Assembly (NCBI GenBank): GCA_009773495.1
Contig: WSXW01000004.1
Span: 1-64,000 of the forward strand
Source of the DNA: Bacillota bacterium
Lineage (GTDB): Bacteria > Bacillota > UBA994
Direction: 5' to 3'
DNA: 64,000 nt
Shown: one piece after another, positions 18,303 to 29,808 of the stretch
How positions within the stretch are numbered: the stretch's first letter is position 1
How the letters are laid out: each line of letters begins with the position of its first letter
Made by a program: the position numbers and the translations under genes
Notes under the pieces: generated by a model
Database searches by the model: none
What the model saw: the letters and a program-made list of their open reading frames with translations, nothing else
What the model was told of the DNA's origin: nothing

Positions 18303-20081
18303 TTGAACGATACGGAGAAAAGATCTAGGCTGTATGAGCCGTTGTTTAACATGCCGCACCTCGCTATTGCCCTGTTGGACAAGGAGTTTAACTATATAGA
18401 GGTCAATGAGACGTACGCTAAGTCGGATAACCGCTCACGGGACTTTTTCCCTGGGAAGAACCATTTTGTTCTTTATCCGTCTGAAGTCATTGTCTTATTT
18501 AGGCAGGCGCTAGAGACGCGGTTGCCTGTGCAATCCGTTGGCCGACTGTTTGGGAGCGCGGACGCTTCCGACCGGGAGATAATTCATTGGGAGTGGGCAT
18601 TGTCGCCGATATTTGATGAGCACGGGGAAGTCGATATGCTGTTATTTTCCCTAAGGAATGTGACGAATAAGATGAGGGCCAAGCACGCTCTGATTAAAGC
18701 CAACGAGAATCTCGCGCATATATTAGAAAGCATAAGCAGCATTTTTTATTTTCTGGATACTGACTACTGCTTTACATACATGAATAAGGCTGCCGACAAA
18801 CACATTAAGTCGATCCGTCCCGATGACATGTTAGGCAAGTGTATATGGGATATGTTTCCTGCCCTTAGAGAGTCGCTAGCTTATGAAAAGCTTCATACGG
18901 TAATGAACCAGAGAGTATCTGAGCATTTTGAGATTCTCTTGCCTTACACCAACAAATGGGCTGATGTATATGTATATCCATCTCCCCAGGGGATCTCTAT
19001 ATTCTTTAACGATATTACGGCGAAGAAGGAGGCGGAACTTGAATTCGCCCGCACTCAGAAGAAATTCGCCACAATTTTTAATACGAGTCCTACTATTATG
19101 TCCATCAGATGCTTAAGAACCGACCGCTATCTTGAGGTGAACGAGGCCTGGATAGATGCTATTGGTTACACTAGGGATGAGGTGATCGGTAAAACGCCTA
19201 AGGAAATGGGCTTACCAACAACTCCCGGAGCGGAAACTATGACCGATGTGTTTAAAGCACGACAGCTCCCCTTTAAAGAGCGGCCACGCCAATTTCACAC
19301 CAAGTCACGAGGGGTTCGCGAAGGGATTATGTCAGCTTCTCTCATGGAACTAAACGGTGAGGAATGCGCGTTAGTAGTCACCACTGATTTGACAGAACAG
19401 CGGGCCCTAGAGCGTGAAATGCAACGGCTAGATAAACTCAATGTCATCGCCCAGATGGCTAGCGGTGTGGGGCATGAGATTCGCAACCCCCTGACTGTGG
19501 TGCGCGGCTTTTTGCAGCTACTTCAGGGCCGGTACCCCGACAGCGCCTACCAATTCAACATGATGATATCTGAGTTAGATAGGGCCAATGGAATTATTAC
19601 TGAGTTCCTTGCTCTAGCCAAGACAAAACCTGACGAGCAAAAGCTAGGCAGCATTAATGATGTGATAGAACGCATATTCCCTATGCTACGGGCCAAAGCC
19701 TTAGAATTTCAGAGGGAGATCTGCCTACATGTGTCCAATACCCCCGAGGTACTCTTAAGTGAGCCAGAATTGAGACAGATTCTGCTTAACCTAACCATTA
19801 ACGCCATTGAAGCCAGTACGCATGACACCCAAGTTGATATATGCACCTACCACACTGACAAGGATGCTATCGTATCTGTGACAAACAAGGGCCCTGGTAT
19901 AACGCCTGAGGTGAAGAAGCTTTTGGGTACACCATTCTTTACGACCAAGGACCACGGTACTGGACTGGGGCTAGCCATAAGCTACAATTTGGCCAAGCTA
20001 CATGGAGGCAGCATCGAATTAGATAGCAACGAAGAGGAGACGACTTTTTTCCTGAGGCTGCCCTTACCCTTGGGAACATAA
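18303..20081 (+). CDS. Soluble three-PAS sensor histidine kinase
   Basis: The 592-residue protein has no membrane segment. Three PAS-like domains (about 10-125, 135-245 and 252-368) precede a HisKA domain with the phosphorylated His391 (GVGHEIRNP) and an HATPase domain (GTGLGLAISYNLAKLHGG near the end). The motif HEIRNPLT followed by RGFLQL is typical of Spo0A-phosphorelay kinases (KinA/KinE) and NtrB-type kinases. There is no response regulator beside it, which fits an orphan kinase feeding a phosphorelay. The start is TTG at 18303 with GAGGAGGG upstream; an ATG 7 bases earlier is in another frame. A terminator follows at 20088. Confidence 0.88.
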   Translation: MNDTEKRSRLYEPLFNMPHLAIALLDKEFNYIEVNETYAKSDNRSRDFFPGKNHFVLYPSEVIVLFRQALETRLPVQSVGRLFGSADASDREIIHWEWALSPIFDEHGEVDMLLFSLRNVTNKMRAKHALIKANENLAHILESISSIFYFLDTDYCFTYMNKAADKHIKSIRPDDMLGKCIWDMFPALRESLAYEKLHTVMNQRVSEHFEILLPYTNKWADVYVYPSPQGISIFFNDITAKKEAELEFARTQKKFATIFNTSPTIMSIRCLRTDRYLEVNEAWIDAIGYTRDEVIGKTPKEMGLPTTPGAETMTDVFKARQLPFKERPRQFHTKSRGVREGIMSASLMELNGEECALVVTTDLTEQRALEREMQRLDKLNVIAQMASGVGHEIRNPLTVVRGFLQLLQGRYPDSAYQFNMMISELDRANGIITEFLALAKTKPDEQKLGSINDVIERIFPMLRAKALEFQREICLHVSNTPEVLLSEPELRQILLNLTINAIEASTHDTQVDICTYHTDKDAIVSVTNKGPGITPEVKKLLGTPFFTTKDHGTGLGLAISYNLAKLHGGSIELDSNEEETTFFLRLPLPLGT

Positions 20082-20399: not shown

Positions 20400-22196
20400 G
20401 TGATAAAATTAGGTTCGCTGCTGCTGGTACTAGTTTTGGTACTATCCTTGGCCGGCTGTGCCGAAAAAACCCCCGCTGTTGAGACCACGCTTGTAGTAGG
20501 TAGCTCGGAAATATCAGGCAACTTCCTTTCCGGTTTTGGTGACAGCGCCTACGATGTGTGGGTGCGGGAGCTTATCTCGGGTTACGAGACTTATTCTACT
20601 ACACCTACTGGCGAGATCGTCCTAAATAAGACAGTCGTAAAGAATCTTAAGACCGAGATTGACACTGTTGGCAACAAGACCTACACCTTTGACTTACATA
20701 AAGACATGAAATGGAACAATGGCACCGTCGTAACGGCCAAAGACTATGTATTTTATATTCTTTGGTATGCTTCCCCGGCTTGGACAGAGGCAGGCGCAAC
20801 CAGCACCGTTGGTGAAGGCCTAATAGGCTACCAAGACTATTATGAGGGCGAGGTCGATCGTTTCAAGGGCGTTAAGCTCATTAATGATTACAGCTTCTCC
20901 GTCACTATTGATGCCGAAGAGCTCCCCTATTTCTTTGAGACTAACTATGCGTCGTTTATTCCTGCTCCGATGGCTGTATGGGCGCCTGGCGCCACTTTAG
21001 ACATTAACGCTGACGGCGCTAAGATTGCCGGCCTTGACCTGGTAAAGACTGCTTCTACAGTTGCTACCACTGAACGCTTTAAACCCACTGTCACCTCCGG
21101 TCCATACAAATTTGTTAGCTTCGAAAATAGCGCGGTGACTGTGAAGATCAATGAGAACTTCAAGGGCACCTTCGAAAACAAGAAGCCTCAGCTTACTTAT
21201 GTAGTCATAAAGTCTATTAACATGACCACCGATGTTGACCAGGTTATCAACGGTGAAATCGACTTGGTGACTGGCGTTATCGAGGGCGAGAAGATTGAAA
21301 AGGCCAAGGCTTCCAAAACCACTTCTGTTAACTACTACGCCCGTAACGGTTTCGGTGGCGTATTTATGCATTGCGACTTCGGCGCAACAGCTATACCCGA
21401 AGTGCGCCACGCTCTGGCCTATCTTATGGACAGAGACGAGATTATCTCCAACGTGCTGGGTGGCTACGGCTCGGTTACCAATGGGTACTATGGTCTAGCA
21501 CAGTGGATGTACACGAAGAATAAGGCTGCTATCGATGCTTTCCCACATTTTGTCCGTAATATTGCCAAGGCCAATGAACTTCTCAACCAGACCGAATGGA
21601 AGTTTGAAGCCGACGGCAAGACCTCCTTTGACCCCGCCAAGGCAAACGCGGCCGGGACCTACTTGCGCTATAATGCCAAGAAGGAAAAACTTGTGATTAA
21701 GCACTTCGGCACCGAAGATAACACGGTAACCGATAACGTTGAAATCCAGTTCAAGGCTAACACACCGCTAGCCGGCATTGATTTCACCATTGCAAGGGGC
21801 GACTTTGATGCTTTATTAGACAACTATTACTATGCTTATGAACTTAAGCCCGAAGAGAGAGTCTACCATAGCTACAACCTAGCTACCAACTTTGGCGCTA
21901 CCTTTGATCCTTATTATAGCTTCCATAGCGACTTCCTTGGTACTTGGCAGAACGCCAACCAAGTCAACGATCCTGAGCTAGATGCACTAATGATCAAGAT
22001 GAGAAGCCTCGAGCCCACTCAAGTGACTGAGTTCTCAGCTGCTTGGCTGGAGTTCCAGAAGCGCTGGTATGAAATTCTCCCCATTATACCTTTGTACTCC
22101 AATCAGTATTATGATGTCTTTGGCGCAGGCGTAAAGGGCGTTAACACCACTCCGTTTTCCACCTGGGCAGCAATTATCTGCGATATCTCTAAATAA
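20400..22196 (+). CDS. Peptide/nickel ABC transporter substrate-binding lipoprotein
   Basis: The 598-residue protein is an OppA/DppA-type (SBP_bac_5) binding protein. It has a lipoprotein signal peptide with the lipobox LAGC (Cys21), so it is tethered to the outer membrane face. Family features include FDLHKDMKWNNGTVVTAKDY near residue 100 and ALAYLMDRDEII near residue 340. It captures the substrate, probably peptides, for the permeases encoded downstream. The start is GTG at 20400 with AAGGAGG and 9-nt spacing. A leaky terminator-like hairpin lies between it and the permease gene, which fits the usual excess of binding protein over transporter. Confidence 0.92.
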   Translation: MIKLGSLLLVLVLVLSLAGCAEKTPAVETTLVVGSSEISGNFLSGFGDSAYDVWVRELISGYETYSTTPTGEIVLNKTVVKNLKTEIDTVGNKTYTFDLHKDMKWNNGTVVTAKDYVFYILWYASPAWTEAGATSTVGEGLIGYQDYYEGEVDRFKGVKLINDYSFSVTIDAEELPYFFETNYASFIPAPMAVWAPGATLDINADGAKIAGLDLVKTASTVATTERFKPTVTSGPYKFVSFENSAVTVKINENFKGTFENKKPQLTYVVIKSINMTTDVDQVINGEIDLVTGVIEGEKIEKAKASKTTSVNYYARNGFGGVFMHCDFGATAIPEVRHALAYLMDRDEIISNVLGGYGSVTNGYYGLAQWMYTKNKAAIDAFPHFVRNIAKANELLNQTEWKFEADGKTSFDPAKANAAGTYLRYNAKKEKLVIKHFGTEDNTVTDNVEIQFKANTPLAGIDFTIARGDFDALLDNYYYAYELKPEERVYHSYNLATNFGATFDPYYSFHSDFLGTWQNANQVNDPELDALMIKMRSLEPTQVTEFSAAWLEFQKRWYEILPIIPLYSNQYYDVFGAGVKGVNTTPFSTWAAIICDISK

Positions 22197-22235
22197 CAAG
22201 GGTTGGTGTTAATCTAATATGCTACCAGGCTACCA

Positions 22236-22272
22236 AGAAAAAGGGGATGGCTTGCGCTGTCCCCTTTCTTTT
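22236..22272 (+). terminator. Read-through hairpin between binding protein and permease
   Basis: The arms AAAGGGGATGGC (22240-22251) and GCTGTCCCCTTT (22256-22267) pair over 12 bp with two G-U pairs, and CTTTT follows. It lies inside the operon and probably attenuates permease expression relative to the binding protein. Confidence 0.7.
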
Positions 22273-22338
22273 GGGATGGCCCAGATTATCCTCGATAATT
22301 ATGGGCCCGGAAAATTGCCTAAAAAGGAGGCTCCTGTT

Positions 22339-23310
22339 GTGTTAAAGTACATTATAAAGAGACTAATCTCCTTGATACCAGTTATAGTCTTGGTGACAAT
22401 TTTACTTTTTGCTCTCCTTAAGTTTATGCCAGGCGATCCAGTGCGGATGATGCTCGGGCCTGGCCTGAAGGCCGAACAGTATAAAGCGGCTGAAGCGGTA
22501 ATGAGAGTTAAGCTGGGGCTGGACAAATCCTATCCCGAACAATATTTTAGATGGATTGGCAACACCCTATCCGGTGAGTTAGGCTGGTCTTCACTCTCTA
22601 ACCGCCCGGTAAAGGACGCCATCAGTGAACCGATGCGGAATACCGTTATACTAAATATTTTTGTTATTATTCTAGAACTTGCTATCACCTTGCCAGTTGG
22701 CATTATGTGCGCCGTTAAGCGGGGCTCCCGTTTCGATAATTTCTGGCAGGTATTTTCCTTAGTAACTTACTCCATGCCCTCGTTCTTTGTGGCCCTAACC
22801 CTGATTTATGTGGTGGCCATTAACTTACAGCTGCTGCCACCGGGCGGCATGCCCCTCACAGCCTATGGCAAAAATTTTGCCTACTATGTCTCTTGGCTGA
22901 GGTATATGGCCTTGCCTGTCATAACCCTGACCATTATCAGCCTTGCCGGAACCATCCGGTATGTGCGCAACGCTATGATTGACGCGCTTAGCCAGGATTA
23001 TATCCGGACGGCGCGCTCTAAGGGACTTGCGGAAAAGGTTGTAATATATTCGCACGCATTTAGAAATGCTTTAATTCCGATTTCTACAATTATTATTTTC
23101 TCAGTGTTTTCTCTATTCAGCGGTTCAGCAATTACAGAAACTGTCTTCGCGTGGAATGGTATCGGCCAAGTACTGGTCAAAGCACTACTCAATCGCGACT
23201 TCATGTTAGTCAGTGCCATGAACCTGTTCTTCGCCAGCCTTAGTATTACAGCTAACTTTGTGGCTGATATAACTTATGGACTTGTTGATCCCCGCATCAA
23301 GCTGGAATAG
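22339..23310 (+). CDS. ABC transporter permease, OppB/DppB type
   Basis: The 323-residue integral membrane protein starts KYIIKRLISLIPVI, typical of OppB/DppB, and ends YGLVDPRIKLE, typical of the family. Six membrane segments and the EAA-loop region (SQDYIRTARSKGL) are visible. The start chosen is GTG at 22339, with GGAGG and 8-nt spacing. An upstream in-frame ATG at 22219 would place the terminator-like hairpin in the coding region and add 40 unrelated residues. It pairs with the following OppC-type permease to form the channel. Confidence 0.93.
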   Translation: MLKYIIKRLISLIPVIVLVTILLFALLKFMPGDPVRMMLGPGLKAEQYKAAEAVMRVKLGLDKSYPEQYFRWIGNTLSGELGWSSLSNRPVKDAISEPMRNTVILNIFVIILELAITLPVGIMCAVKRGSRFDNFWQVFSLVTYSMPSFFVALTLIYVVAINLQLLPPGGMPLTAYGKNFAYYVSWLRYMALPVITLTIISLAGTIRYVRNAMIDALSQDYIRTARSKGLAEKVVIYSHAFRNALIPISTIIIFSVFSLFSGSAITETVFAWNGIGQVLVKALLNRDFMLVSAMNLFFASLSITANFVADITYGLVDPRIKLE

Positions 23311-23321
23311 GAGTGAGACAA

Positions 23322-25217
23322 ATGGAGAATAGACCAGTGCTGAGTTCTACGCGAGGGGAATCAAGTCTGAGGAAGCTAGGCAAGTCCTTTTACGGAATGT
23401 TCAGTCGGTTGTTTATACGCGACAGAGCATTGGTATCTGTCTTAGAAGAGGAAGCCCTGCAGACCCCCGGTAAGACCATTTTCAAAAATTTTCTGCGCCA
23501 TAAGTTAGGCCTTGCCGGTGTTATCGGTCTTATTTTAATTCTCGGATTTTCTTTTGTCGGCTCCTACGTTAAACCCATGGATTTAAGTTATGTTGAGACC
23601 GCCCTGCGTAATATTGCTCCGGGCTACAACTACCTCCGATTTCCCTCCCAGCTAGTCAAAGAGGGTGTCCAACAGATTTCCTCCGGAATTTCCTTCTCTG
23701 TAGCCTTATCCAACAGTGGAAAGGTGTATGTTTGGGGCACACAGCCAGCCTATATTTTGGAAGGAGTCTCCACATCGGCACTAACGATCCCCCCGGAGGT
23801 ACAGAACGCCCAGATTGTGCAGGTTGTAGCGGGCGATCGTCACATCCTCGCCGTGGACGCGCAGGGGAAGTTGTATGGGTGGGGCTTTAACAACTTTAAG
23901 CAAGCTGAAGCTCCCAATTTGCTGCTAGGCAAGCTGTCTAGCAAAAAAGTTGCCATGTTAATCGGTGGCGAAGCATATTCGGCAGTGCTGTTTGAAGACG
24001 GCGAACTGTTTGTGTGGGGCAGCACAATGTCTAACAGATTAGACATTGTGCCGGAAGCGTATCAGGGGCATATCGTCAAGGTGGCGGCGAGCCCCCATAA
24101 CATGGCGCTGTTGCTCGACGACGGCACCGTGGCTGTCACGGGCATTAAGGGTAACGCCTTTTCGGATGTCCCACGTAACATGCAGGATGGCACGTTCAAT
24201 ATTGTGGACATTACGGCCTCTTATCGCGCCGTTTTGGCTCTGGATGACCGCGGTAAGCTACACATCTGGGGCGACAACGAGTACGATATCTTGAAAATCC
24301 CTGAATTTCAAGGTAAGGTAATGGCTTTAGACGCTGGCAAAAATAACCTGGCAGTTTTGACAGATGCCGGCGAAGTCCTTTATTGGGGCGCAAACCACTA
24401 CAATCAATTGGATCTTCCCCAACGCGTGCAAAAAAAGAAACACGTTGAAATCTACTCCAATATGTTTCAAAACTACGCCGTGGGCGCTGATGGTTCGATT
24501 AGCGCCTGGGGCCTCAAAGGTTTTATATTCGGCACCGATGAATTTGGACGCGACCTTTTGACCCGCTTGATTCACGGTGGGCGCATCTCCTTGGCTGTAG
24601 GTGCCATATCTGTAGTCATCTCTGTTATTATCGCCTTATTTTTTGGCATGACAGCTGGCTTCTTTGGCGGCCAGGTCGACATGATCCTCATGCGCATTAC
24701 TGATGTAGTCACGGCCATTCCCTTTTTACCCATCGCGATTACGCTGTCGGCAGTAGTAGTTGGCAAGGTGTCGGAAATGTACCGACTCTATATGATTATG
24801 GTGATTATAGGTGTCTTAACGTGGCCAAGCTTGGCTCGTCTAGTGCGTGCCCAGATTCTGCTCGAGCGCGAGAAGGACTTTGTACTGGCGGCCAGAGCAC
24901 TAGGCGTGAAGCAACACAACATTATTCTCCGCCACATCCTGCCCAATATTTTCAATTTGGTCATTGTAAGTGTCACTCTCAGTTATGCTAGTTCTCTCCT
25001 GATCGAAGCCGGTCTTTCCTTTCTTGGCTTCGGCGTGGCCGCCCCCACTCCTTCCTGGGGCAATATGCTGCAGGGAGCGCAAACCGCTGCGGTACTGGAG
25101 TACTATTGGTGGAGATGGCTGATTCCAGGCTTGTTCGTGGTTATGGCTGCACTCAGTGTCAACCTTATTGGGGATGCGCTGCGTGAGGCTATGGACCCGA
25201 AAGCAAATGAGAAGTAG
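23322..25217 (+). CDS. OppC/DppC-type permease with inserted RCC1-like beta-propeller
   Basis: The protein has 631 residues; OppC proteins usually have about 300. Numbering below counts from the GTG at 23313; the ATG three codons later has the better ribosome site (AGGAG, 8 nt). Transmembrane helix 1 lies at about 65-84. Residues 118-402 hold seven repeats of about 40 residues, each ending in a WG-type turn (YVWG, YGWG, FVWG, AVTG, HIWG, LYWG, SAWG), as in RCC1 propellers. The normal OppC core resumes at GTDEFGRD (407-414), with the remaining five helices, the EAA loop (DFVLAARALGV) and the ending GDALREAMDP. The propeller is in the first extracytoplasmic loop, facing the binding protein. Reading frame and codon use are continuous, so this is a real fusion. 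Confidence 0.92.
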   Translation: MENRPVLSSTRGESSLRKLGKSFYGMFSRLFIRDRALVSVLEEEALQTPGKTIFKNFLRHKLGLAGVIGLILILGFSFVGSYVKPMDLSYVETALRNIAPGYNYLRFPSQLVKEGVQQISSGISFSVALSNSGKVYVWGTQPAYILEGVSTSALTIPPEVQNAQIVQVVAGDRHILAVDAQGKLYGWGFNNFKQAEAPNLLLGKLSSKKVAMLIGGEAYSAVLFEDGELFVWGSTMSNRLDIVPEAYQGHIVKVAASPHNMALLLDDGTVAVTGIKGNAFSDVPRNMQDGTFNIVDITASYRAVLALDDRGKLHIWGDNEYDILKIPEFQGKVMALDAGKNNLAVLTDAGEVLYWGANHYNQLDLPQRVQKKKHVEIYSNMFQNYAVGADGSISAWGLKGFIFGTDEFGRDLLTRLIHGGRISLAVGAISVVISVIIALFFGMTAGFFGGQVDMILMRITDVVTAIPFLPIAITLSAVVVGKVSEMYRLYMIMVIIGVLTWPSLARLVRAQILLEREKDFVLAARALGVKQHNIILRHILPNIFNLVIVSVTLSYASSLLIEAGLSFLGFGVAAPTPSWGNMLQGAQTAAVLEYYWWRWLIPGLFVVMAALSVNLIGDALREAMDPKANEK

Positions 25218-25228
25218 GGGGGAGGAAG

Positions 25229-26224
25229 ATGAGCCTACTAGATATTAGCAACTTGCACACCTATTTTGATACCCGCCGCGGCTTGATTAAGGCTGTTAAC
25301 GGGGCCTCCTTAAGTGTGGACCATGGAAAGACCTTAGGGGTCGTGGGTGAGTCGGGCAGCGGAAAGAGCCAGACGGCCTTGAGTATTCTGCAGTTATTTG
25401 AGAACAACCAACGCATCTATGACGGCAAAATAACCTTTGATGGCAGAGATATCACCCACCTCGAGAGAAGCGAATTGTACAAAATCCGCGGGAACTCCAT
25501 CTCCATGATCTTTCAGGAGCCAATGACCTCACTAAACCCTGTTTTTACTGTCAGCCGCCAAATCAGCGAGCCACTCATGCTTCACCAAGGAATGACCAAG
25601 AGAGAAGCAAATGCTCGTTCGATAGAGATGCTGGACGCGGTGAAAATCCCCAACCCTGAGCAGATGGCCGTGCAGTACCCGCATCAGCTTTCAGGTGGGA
25701 TGCGCCAGCGCGTGATGATTGCTATGGCTCTAGCCTGCCGTCCCCGGCTGTTAATTGCCGACGAACCTACTACCGCCCTAGATGTAACCATTCAGGCGCA
25801 AATACTGCGCCTGATGAACGAACTGAGGGCTAAGTTCAGTACCTCCATTATGTTTATCACCCATAATTTAGGCGTAGTTAACCAGATGGCCGACGACGTC
25901 GCTGTGATGTACTGTGGCGAAGTGGTGGAATTGGCACCGGTAGACTATATTTTCAAAGTTCGTAGCAACTATTCTCACCCTTACACCGAAGCGCTGCTTA
26001 AGTCTATTCCACTCCTCACCCGCAAGCAGGACAAGCGGTTGGATGCGATCCCGGGCACGGTGCCTCACCCACTCGCCCTGCCCCCCGGCTGCAAATTTGG
26101 GCCGCGATGCAAATATGCGGACGATTTGTGTAAAAAACAAGAACCTGCGCTGACGCATGTAAGTGCAGTACAGTCTGTCAGATGCTTCTATCCTCAAAAG
26201 GAGGTGAGAAACCGTGGAGAATAA
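25229..26224 (+). CDS. Peptide ABC transporter ATPase, OppD/DppD type
   Basis: The 331-residue ATPase has Walker A (GESGSGKS), Q-loop ([10 protein letters not shown]), signature (LSGGMRQR), Walker B ([12 protein letters not shown]) and H-loop (THNLG). The C-terminal oligopeptide-transporter region carries the cysteine pattern ([14 protein letters not shown]) typical of OppD/DppD, which may hold an iron-sulfur cluster. The start has GGGAGGAAG upstream. It overlaps the OppF-type gene by 11 nt. It energises the two permeases as a heterodimer with the next ATPase and shows no abnormal insertion, unlike its partner. Confidence 0.93.
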
Positions 26225-27734
26225 GAAGGTACTACTCCGCATCGAAAACCTGACTAAGCACTTTCCCATTAAGAAAGCTTCTATTTTCCAGCGCAAGCAA
26301 TTGTATGTACAGGCCAACAACGATATTACCTTTGACATATATGAAGGTGAAACCTTCGGTCTGGTTGGCGAAAGTGGTTGTGGCAAATCCACGTTGGGCA
26401 GAGTAATTCTCCAATTGTACATGCAGTCCGGAGGCACAACCCTATACTACGGCAGGACGCTGGAGGAGTTTAAGCCTAGATATGTGAAGCGAACCATTAA
26501 GCAGCTGCCAAGGATTTTGACCCAATATGACCAGCTGCGCAAAAAGTTAGATGATAAAGCTAAGCTTAGCGGACGCGCTAAAGCAGTGATTGCTAGGTAC
26601 TATGACGCTGTTCGCATCGCTGGCGGCCTAGTTCTTGCCGATGATCTTCAGGAAGTATCCCGTGTGTTAATGGATGAATACAACGCTGGCGTTGTGCACT
26701 TCTCCTTAGCCCAACAATTGTATGACTTGTCCCTTAAAAGGGACACACTGGCCGAATTGGCAAACAGAAGCCCAGCGGCTAATCAGAAACTAGGCAGCTA
26801 CAGCAGAGAGATCGTGGATTTGACCGTGGCACTAGAGAAAGCGAAAGCCACACTGGACAGAGCACGCGCAGCATTGACAGACGTGCGTACCAAGTGTTCT
26901 TCCAAGGCAAGCTTTAGTACTGTGGACAAGATGCAAGATGAGGGGATTGATTTGGGTCAGCTGACCGGCGAGGAGCAACGTGTACTGCGCCGGGAGCTTC
27001 AGATCATTTTTCAAGACCCCTACTCCTCCCTGAATCCCCGCCTGACTGTGGGACAAGTGATAAGCGAGGCCTTAACGGCGCACAACATTTTCAGGAGCGG
27101 CACAGAAGTACTGGAGAAATACGTATTAGACATCATGGAGAAATGCGGCCTACAGCCCTACATGCTCCATCGTTATCCACATCAGTTCTCGGGTGGGCAG
27201 CGTCAGAGAATTGGCATTGCCCGCGCTTTGGCTGTTCAACCTAAATTTGTGGTCTGCGATGAGGCCGTTAGCGCGCTGGATGTATCTATACAGTCGCAGA
27301 TTATTAATCTCTTGGTCGACCTCAAGGAGCAAAACAAACTAACCTATTTGTTCATTTCCCACGACCTGAGTGTTGTAAAATTCATCAGTGACCGTATCGC
27401 CGTGATGTATTTGGGGAATGTAATTGAGCTAGCTAGCTCGGACGTAGTTTTCCGCAATGCTCTTCATCCCTATACCGAGGCTCTGTTGGAGGCCATACCG
27501 ACTACTGAAGACGAATCCGGAAAAGAGCTTGCGCTTATTAAGGGCGATATTCCGAGCCCCATAAATCCGCCTAGTGGCTGCAAATTCCACACCCGCTGCA
27601 AATACACTACCGAGAAATGCATCGCTGTCGTGCCGGAGTGGAGAGAGTATAAACCAGGACATTTCGTGGCCTGCCATTACCCACTGGATAGGGGGGGACC
27701 GCTTGTTCAAGAGACTGCTGGAGCGTCTACCTAA
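26214..27734 (+). CDS. Peptide ABC transporter ATPase, OppF/DppF type, with helical insertion
   Basis: The protein has 506 residues; OppF is usually about 320-330. Walker A (GESGCGKS, 52-59) is followed normally to about residue 80. Then comes an extra segment, about 84-248, rich in charged heptad-like helices (QYDQLRKKLDDKAKL, VALEKAKATLDRARAAL). The standard fold resumes at LRRELQIIFQDPYSSLNPR (Q-loop), with signature FSGGQRQR, Walker B FVVCDEAVSALD and H-loop SHDLSVV. The C-terminal cysteine pattern (CKFHTRCKY) is present. The insertion replaces the short link before the Q-loop and should sit near the catalytic core or protrude as a coiled coil. All nucleotide-binding motifs are intact, so the ATPase is probably active. 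Confidence 0.92.
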   Translation: MENKKVLLRIENLTKHFPIKKASIFQRKQLYVQANNDITFDIYEGETFGLVGESGCGKSTLGRVILQLYMQSGGTTLYYGRTLEEFKPRYVKRTIKQLPRILTQYDQLRKKLDDKAKLSGRAKAVIARYYDAVRIAGGLVLADDLQEVSRVLMDEYNAGVVHFSLAQQLYDLSLKRDTLAELANRSPAANQKLGSYSREIVDLTVALEKAKATLDRARAALTDVRTKCSSKASFSTVDKMQDEGIDLGQLTGEEQRVLRRELQIIFQDPYSSLNPRLTVGQVISEALTAHNIFRSGTEVLEKYVLDIMEKCGLQPYMLHRYPHQFSGGQRQRIGIARALAVQPKFVVCDEAVSALDVSIQSQIINLLVDLKEQNKLTYLFISHDLSVVKFISDRIAVMYLGNVIELASSDVVFRNALHPYTEALLEAIPTTEDESGKELALIKGDIPSPINPPSGCKFHTRCKYTTEKCIAVVPEWREYKPGHFVACHYPLDRGGPLVQETAGAST

Positions 27735-28020: not shown

Positions 28021-29808
28021 ATGTCGAAGCAACTCAAACGTACTGAAGTTCCGGTTGAGCAGACTTGGGACGTCTCGGACATTTTCGCTACTGTGGAAGC
28101 GTGGGAAGCAGAATTAGGAGCCCTGCCGGAGTTGGTGAGCAACGTCACTACGTTTAAGGGGAGGCTCGGCGAGGGGGCCAAGGTGCTATTAGGATGCCTT
28201 GATGCCCAGGAAGCACTGCAAACAAGAGCCGTCAAGGTGCTGTCATACGCTTCGCTTAATCAGTCGAGCGACGGCACAAACCCTAGTTATCAGGTGCTCG
28301 CCGGAAAAGCAGCGTCTGTAGGAGCACAAATACAGGCTGAGACCTCGTTTATCCAATCCGAAGCACTGAGCCTCCCTGAGGGGATGCTGGATGGGTACTT
28401 ACAAGAAGAAGCGGGCTTGGAGCCGTATGCAATAACCATCCAAAAATGGATTGAGAAGAAGCCCTACCTACTCAGCCCCGAAACAGAAATGGTGTTAGCT
28501 GCACTCGGTCAGGTGTTGAACTCGCCAGTAGAAGTCTACGAACGCTCTAGAACTGCGGACTTATCGTTTGGCTCCGTCAGCGACAGCGCAGGTAATATGC
28601 ACCCTATGTCTTTAGGGCGCCATGAGTCCGCCGCTGATATGACGCTGCGGCGCAATGCTTATGCCGAATTGAACAAGGCACTGACACCATACCAGCATAC
28701 CTACGGTGCTACTTGGGGGACTGAGGTCAAAAAGAACGTGGTTACCGCCAAGCTACGCGGATTTGACTCAGCTATCCACATGCTCCTAGACCTGCAGGAA
28801 GTAAACACGGAAATCTACCATAACATCCACGATGTTATTCTTGAGGAGCTTGCGCCGCATATGCGTAAATACGCTCAACTGCGCAAACGCGTACTCGGGC
28901 TAGATAAAATGCTCTACTGCGATATCGAGGCACCGCTAGATCCTGAGTTTAGCCCCTCTACCACCTATGAGCAGGCTGCGGAGCTAGTTCTGGGGGGCTT
29001 GAAGGTGCTAGGCCCTGAGTACGCAGAGATTATGTCTACCGGCCTTAGGGATCGCTGGGTAGACCGTGCCGACAACATAGGCAAGAGAACGGGCGCGTTC
29101 TGCAATTCGGTTTATGGGGTCCACCCGTACATCAGCATGACCTGGACTAACCAAATGCGCAATGCGCTTACGCTGGCGCATGAGCTTGGTCATGCTGGCC
29201 AAGGGGTTATGGCACAGCGCTATCAGCGTTTAGCTAATACCCGGCCGACTATGTTTTTTATTGAGGCGCCTTCGACCATTAATGAGATCCTGGTTGCAGA
29301 TTACATCCTAGCCCAGAGCGATGATGTGCGCATGCGCCGTTGGCTGATTATGCAGCTTCTGATGAGCTACCACCACAACTTTGTGCGCCACTTAATTGAG
29401 GGCGAACTGCAGCGCCGCACTTATGTAATGGCTGAGAAAGGCCAGCCCATTACGGCCACTGTGCTTAATAAGGTACAGGGCGAGATACTCGATGAGTTCT
29501 GGGGCGGTGAAGTGGAGATCGATGAGGGCGCTAGGATGGTATGGATGCGCCAAGCGCACTACTACCGCGGCTTGTACCCATACAGCTATGCAGCCGGCCT
29601 TACCGTGGGCACAGCTGTGGCTAAAGCCATTCGCACCGAGGGAGCTCCCGCTGCCGAGCGGTGGGTAAATGTGCTGAGGGCCGGCGGCACACTGAAGCCG
29701 CTAGAACTCGCCAAGCTGGCCGGCGTGGATATGACCAACAGGGAGGCTATTCGTGAAGCCGTAGCCTACGTTGGCTCGTTGGTTGATGAGGTAGTCAAGA
29801 GCTTCTAG
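28021..29808 (+). CDS. pepF: Oligoendopeptidase F-type M3 metallopeptidase
   Basis: The 595-residue zinc peptidase has the M3 motif HELGH (387-391, context LTLAHELGHAGQG) and the third ligand glutamate in the following helix (EAPSTINE, near 415). The N-terminal helical domain starts with TEVPVEQTWDVSDIF, typical of PepF. It degrades short peptides in the cytosol. Its place directly after the peptide transporter suggests it handles the imported peptides. The ATG at 28021 has AAAGGAGG with 7-nt spacing. A palindrome follows 20 bases after the stop. Confidence 0.93.
   Translation: MSKQLKRTEVPVEQTWDVSDIFATVEAWEAELGALPELVSNVTTFKGRLGEGAKVLLGCLDAQEALQTRAVKVLSYASLNQSSDGTNPSYQVLAGKAASVGAQIQAETSFIQSEALSLPEGMLDGYLQEEAGLEPYAITIQKWIEKKPYLLSPETEMVLAALGQVLNSPVEVYERSRTADLSFGSVSDSAGNMHPMSLGRHESAADMTLRRNAYAELNKALTPYQHTYGATWGTEVKKNVVTAKLRGFDSAIHMLLDLQEVNTEIYHNIHDVILEELAPHMRKYAQLRKRVLGLDKMLYCDIEAPLDPEFSPSTTYEQAAELVLGGLKVLGPEYAEIMSTGLRDRWVDRADNIGKRTGAFCNSVYGVHPYISMTWTNQMRNALTLAHELGHAGQGVMAQRYQRLANTRPTMFFIEAPSTINEILVADYILAQSDDVRMRRWLIMQLLMSYHHNFVRHLIEGELQRRTYVMAEKGQPITATVLNKVQGEILDEFWGGEVEIDEGARMVWMRQAHYYRGLYPYSYAAGLTVGTAVAKAIRTEGAPAAERWVNVLRAGGTLKPLELAKLAGVDMTNREAIREAVAYVGSLVDEVVKSF

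Follow-up and report, generated by a model that had tools for sequence, protein, structure and literature searches.

A seven-bladed RCC1-like propeller in the OppC permease of a Firmicutes peptide importer family, with a companion insertion in OppF

Few bacterial transporters are as well studied as the Opp/Dpp importers, whose permeases are regarded as plain membrane proteins in which the loops are short. In the structure of DppABCDF from E. coli, the permease-ATPase pairs are DppC-DppF and DppB-DppD, and DppA caps DppB and DppC (PMC12136057). A scoop motif in the TM1-TM2 loop of DppB enters the cleft of DppA, contacts this solute-binding protein and seals the cavity (PMC12136057). A larger extracytoplasmic domain is found in MalF of the E. 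coli maltose importer, whose large P2 domain is folded within a permease loop at the membrane face to which the binding protein docks; its contact with that protein is documented in titles cited in PMC8134467 and PMC3328499. Here, we describe a conserved variant of the five-subunit Opp/Dpp importer that carries a propeller of OppC on the outside and a predicted helical block of OppF on the inside. The window, that is, the whole stretch of DNA analysed (64,000 nucleotides of a Bacillota contig), contains the following features of this operon.

20400..22196, + strand: oppA, lipoprotein solute-binding protein of the SBP_bac_5 family, 598 aa (Pfam, PDB, lipobox)
22219..23310, + strand: oppB, permease of canonical length (BPD_transp_1, 5.1e-38; BPD_transp_1_N, 1.5e-9)
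23322..25217, + strand: oppC with the inserted propeller (open frame, Pfam and NCBIfam profiles, 27 homologues)
23505..23579, + strand: TM1 of OppC, about residues 65-89 (hydropathy; OppC_N at residues 51-94)
23664..24512, + strand: predicted seven-bladed RCC1-like propeller, residues 118-400, in the TM1-TM2 loop (Pfam, AlphaFold2, Foldseek, phmmer, hydropathy)
24531..25217, + strand: OppC core from GTDEFGRD onwards, TM2-TM6 and coupling loop (BPD_transp_1 at 442-631; PDB matches)
25229..26224, + strand: oppD, ATPase with a C-terminal cysteine motif (ABC_tran, 3.4e-29; oligo_HPY, 6.6e-17)
26214..27734, + strand: oppF, long ATPase, 506 aa (ABC_tran, oligo_HPY; PDB OppF 8z21_D, E=5e-104)
26454..26999, + strand: stretch of oppF encoding the extra, predicted helical block (alignment, span counts, co-occurrence, AlphaFold2)

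The OppA protein carries the lipobox LAGC, matches Pfam PF00496 (E=2.6e-39) and aligns over residues 30-593 with the peptide-binding OppA of PDB 9p48 (E=3.2e-38). The oppB open reading frame begins upstream of the conserved start, its homologues starting near residue 41. Directly upstream of oppA lies a gene for a PAS-domain histidine kinase (18303-20081, + strand), with no counterpart conserved at the other loci of the family. Downstream of the operon lies the gene of a PepF-like oligopeptidase of the M3 family (28021-29808, + strand), in whose sequence no signal peptide is visible; M3 peptidases are found near 5 of the 28 operons of the family (window, L061, L063, L079, and L082). Further away, a T-box leader (RF00230, 51318-51614, + strand, 96.9 bits) is the one feature of the window that Rfam recognizes at gathering threshold.

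The oppC open reading frame (23313-25217, + strand) is uninterrupted and encodes 634 aa when read from the GTG at 23313. Translation probably starts at the ATG at 23322, which is preceded by AGGAG. By homology, the product is an OppC/DppC-type permease of peptide ABC importers, and its transport role is assigned on this basis. It shares OppC_N, the GTDExGRD motif, six TM segments, and the BPD_transp_1 core with the OppC/DppC group (Opp4C; DppC 8z1v and OppC 8z21 from E. coli, OppC 8j5q from M. tuberculosis), as well as the operon make-up of SBP_bac_5 protein, OppB, OppD, and OppF. BPD_transp_1 matches residues 442-631 (9.3e-28, 97.6 bits, cutoff 26.4), and the best PDB matches of the core are OppC 8z21_B (E=7.1e-45) and DppC 8z1v_B (2.7e-44). 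The OppC_N match at residues 51-94 (5.2e-5, 23.5 bits) falls just below the cutoff of 23.9, but the homologue L001 exceeds it with 34.2 bits, and all 27 family members match this model at E<=1e-3. The nearest equivalog is the NCBIfam model Opp4C, with 302.5 bits, short of its cutoff of 350. By contrast with the known proteins, the window OppC carries about 280 extra residues in the TM1-TM2 loop, and its partner OppF carries an extra helical block.

The position of the extra residues follows from the alignment with E. coli OppC and DppC, which begins at residues 82-85 of these proteins and thus places the insertion directly before GTDEFGRD. Hydropathy indicates six hydrophobic segments, with an EAA-type coupling loop between TM4 and TM5. 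The coupling loop is cytoplasmic in OppC-type permeases and so, by parity, the loop between TM1 and TM2 is extracytoplasmic; TM count and coupling-loop position both assign a folded domain to an extracytoplasmic permease loop. The initial annotation had proposed that a full propeller of seven RCC1-like repeats sits in this loop, after TM1 and ahead of the GTDEFGRD motif that opens the core. OppC_N, hydropathy, and core alignment agree with that placement, the six TM segments and the parity argument with its extracytoplasmic side, and the proposed coordinates are correct to within a few bases.

The nature of the domain is indicated by both profiles and structure prediction, in agreement with the initial annotation. 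Pfam RCC1_2 matches in six stretches (E=1.3e-30, 104.8 bits, cutoff 22) and RCC1 with 8.7e-12 (45.9 bits, cutoff 21.7), whereas the full-domain model WD40_RLD (PF25390) stays under its cutoff of 150 with 132.7 bits. Seven repeats can be delimited, with last residues 142, 191, 236, 277, 320, 359, and 400; the fourth, ending at 277, is degenerate and has TG in place of WG. In the AlphaFold2 model, all seven blades are present, each of three strands (119-142 to 377-400), with pLDDT mostly 70-88. OppC and OppF were each modelled from alignments of two sequences (window and L001). Confidence is therefore low (pLDDT under 50) for the membrane segments and for the ATPase core, which leaves the propeller and one helical hairpin of OppF as the usable regions. 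Taken together, the domain is predicted to be a full seven-bladed RCC1-like propeller.

BLIP-II, a protein-binding propeller, is secreted by bacteria and likewise has seven blades. In Foldseek searches of the PDB, it is the best fit to the OppC propeller over the whole template length (TMt 0.80-0.81, 25-27% identity, about 285 aligned columns), UVR8 being found with E=2.7e-18; phmmer agrees, with HERC2, UVR8, and BLIP-II. The OppC propeller shares its seven RCC1-type blades with BLIP-II, UVR8, the HERC2 RLD, and RCC1 but, unlike all of these, is inserted in a membrane transporter, on its extracytoplasmic side. Guanine-nucleotide exchange on Ran, the activity of RCC1 proper, is implausible for an extracytoplasmic propeller in a bacterium. 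Most of the conserved residues belong to the fold (G, W, P), and no catalytic-looking set was found among them, as expected of a binding scaffold. Judging from structure titles, protein binding is what RCC1-like propellers do in the cases of BLIP-II, UVR8-COP1, and RCC1-Ran.

The architecture is not confined to the window. Tblastn-type searches found propeller and permease together in 13 genomes out of 399 from the phylum of the window and, for another class of this phylum, in 15 out of 391; a pattern scan of genome contigs gave at least one match elsewhere, in the cultivable Clostridium sp. KNHs205 (L001). Sampling thus covered one phylum, supplemented by that scan. The total amounts to 28 loci including the window, that is, 27 further genomes, with 28-72% identity. 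The propeller-bearing oppC is a single open frame at every locus, RCC1_2, BPD_transp_1, and OppC_N were matched by all 27 proteins scanned, and the genes are arranged as oppA-oppB-oppC-oppD-oppF as far as each contig extends. Against 13 propeller-free OppCs, the cores of the propeller members form one clade (support 99/97), with a single change on the tree. By these sequence criteria, the propeller-OppC family is a single-origin clade found in several classes of Firmicutes. Its distribution is patchy, since seven other genomes of the window's own family lack it. Among viral contigs there was no match, and among plasmids no record covered 80% of the query.

An assembly chimera or a pseudogene was also considered, given that the genome of the window is in 76 contigs and that those seven relatives lack the gene. 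The probability of this explanation is negligible: G+C is equal in propeller and core (0.51), and the chimera was rejected on finding the same open frame in 27 further independent genomes, single-contig assemblies included. The intact frame and the existence of other RCC1-bearing BPD_transp_1 proteins, both raised in the initial annotation, are thereby established, and recurrence across 28 genomes marks a real variant of a known pump. What goes beyond that annotation is the single-origin clade spanning several classes and an insertion in OppF that travels with the propeller.

Two loci show further variation. At L085 (10919-15434, - strand), two oppA genes stand in tandem ahead of one oppB-C-D-F set, and one propeller-bearing translocator may be served by two binding proteins. 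At L093 (5921-7465, - strand), in another genome of the phylum, OppC is 514 aa long, and about 250 residues that match nothing in Pfam separate its OppC_N (25-73) from BPD_transp_1 (326-511); the TM1-TM2 loop thus holds a different insert here, unrelated to the propeller. The OppF of this locus has the ordinary length of 347 aa.

In operons with a propeller-OppC, OppF has an additional block of about 145-185 residues. This block, predicted to be helical, lies beyond the strand that follows Walker A (TTLYYG) and before the Q-loop (QIIFQDP). The span from this strand to the Q-loop is 182 aa in the window and 164-206 residues in the 22 complete OppFs of the family, vs 18-30 in 13 control operons, which include those of the closest propeller-free OppCs; the block is absent from all 13 controls. 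AlphaFold2 gives OppF a mean pLDDT of 37, with a helical hairpin at 146-229 reaching about 56-77. Searching the same 399 genomes for the insert gave 13 matches, 12 of them in genomes that also have an RCC1-OppC (13 such genomes). In the one propeller genome without a match, G352 (L064), the contig ends before oppD-oppF. In the one insert genome without a propeller, G194, oppA, oppB, and oppC are missing and oppD-oppF alone are left. In this sample, the pairing is therefore unbroken wherever OppC is intact, and no propeller member that has lost the OppF insert was found. The G194 locus (L109:7218-9756, - strand) has oppD and the long oppF placed as in its relatives, with oppA, oppB, and oppC gone or lost in assembly. 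Elsewhere, oppF is split into two frames at L060 (8451-10096, + strand) and L066 (2665-4268, + strand), by frameshift or assembly error; the propeller-oppC stays open at both and is cut by the contig start in L066.

Both insertions diverge faster than the cores of the machine. Mean distances are 1.25 for the propeller and 1.57 for the OppF insert, against 0.57 for the OppC core and 0.35 for OppD; the propeller evolves at about the rate of OppA (1.10). Inserts that are the fastest-evolving parts could be neutral passengers, tolerated but without a role in transport, and the unrelated insertion of L093 indicates that the site tolerates inserts. This explanation is nevertheless very unlikely. A passenger would decay, whereas every one of the 28 members, even at 28-36% identity, keeps the seven blades and the open frame intact along with invariant W, G, and P positions, and no RCC1 member was found to have lost the OppF insert.

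The same rates fit an environment-facing binder, and they count against a docking platform inasmuch as the propeller diverges faster than OppA and the OppC core. A partner other than OppA, such as a polymer or an enzyme of the cell wall or a peptidase at the surface, might be recruited by the propeller, so that peptides would be taken up at their site of release. The whole-template fit to a secreted protein-binding propeller, BLIP-II, and the M3-family peptidase near some of the operons, that of the window included, are compatible with this. We consider it possible but unlikely, since no sixth gene is common to most of the 28 loci besides the five opp genes, the M3 oligopeptidase is devoid of a visible signal peptide, and the strict pairing with an intracellular OppF insert points to the machine itself. 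The lack of a common sixth gene means that the partners of the propeller are most likely found inside the operon.

Mirror-tree analysis did not discriminate between OppA and other partners, with a weak partial correlation of propeller and OppA distances (0.22, 5-95% -0.06 to 0.40) and a value of 0.39 for propeller and OppB. The propeller occupies the OppC loop equivalent to the TM1-TM2 loop of DppB that bears the scoop motif; the scoop has about 30 residues in two short helices, compared with the 283 residues of the propeller. By the DppC-DppF pairing in E. coli Dpp, propeller and OppF insert would lie on one half-transporter, at opposite faces of the membrane. Given this location and an insert on the ATPase partner of OppC, the best supported reading is that the propeller provides the solute-binding protein with a platform for docking or gating and that the OppF block serves as a cytoplasmic arm, a proposal to which we give slightly less than an even chance. 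Canonical OppABCDF functions without a propeller domain, which is a point against it.

As a docking or gating platform, the propeller would stand beside the docking surface of the binding protein, where it may contact OppA, and would play a role like that of MalF P2, although the latter has another fold and occupies another loop, the second periplasmic loop of MalF. Whereas the contact of P2 with its binding protein is documented, that of the propeller is inferred. The propeller might hold or orient OppA over OppB and OppC, help to seal the entrance, and hand the loaded state on to the OppC-OppF half. The OppF block would then be a co-evolved cytoplasmic part of the same half-transporter, acting as a partner-binding or regulatory arm.

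A more far-reaching alternative is that of a receptor-like transporter, in which an extracellular ligand is sensed through the propeller and signalled to a cytoplasmic partner through the helical arm of OppF. The co-occurrence of the inserts on the same OppC-OppF half, at opposite membrane faces as judged from the DppC-DppF pairing (PMC12136057), would suit such a device, as would the PAS histidine kinase preceding the operon of the window. Neither kinase nor regulator recurs at the other loci, however, and the co-occurrence could simply reflect descent of the operon from one ancestor, so that we regard this alternative as improbable. It is similarly doubtful that the propeller, as sensor or clamp, and the OppF arm form one device by which the importer also reports or gates on the ligand of the propeller, as a transporter-receptor.

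Searches of the open-access literature for RCC1 with OppC or oligopeptide permeases returned no relevant paper, and we know of no description of this combination, which is presumably visible in automatic annotation. A clade of importers in which a propeller outside always comes with a predicted helical arm inside provides a natural experiment on how importers recognize their binding proteins or partners in the envelope.
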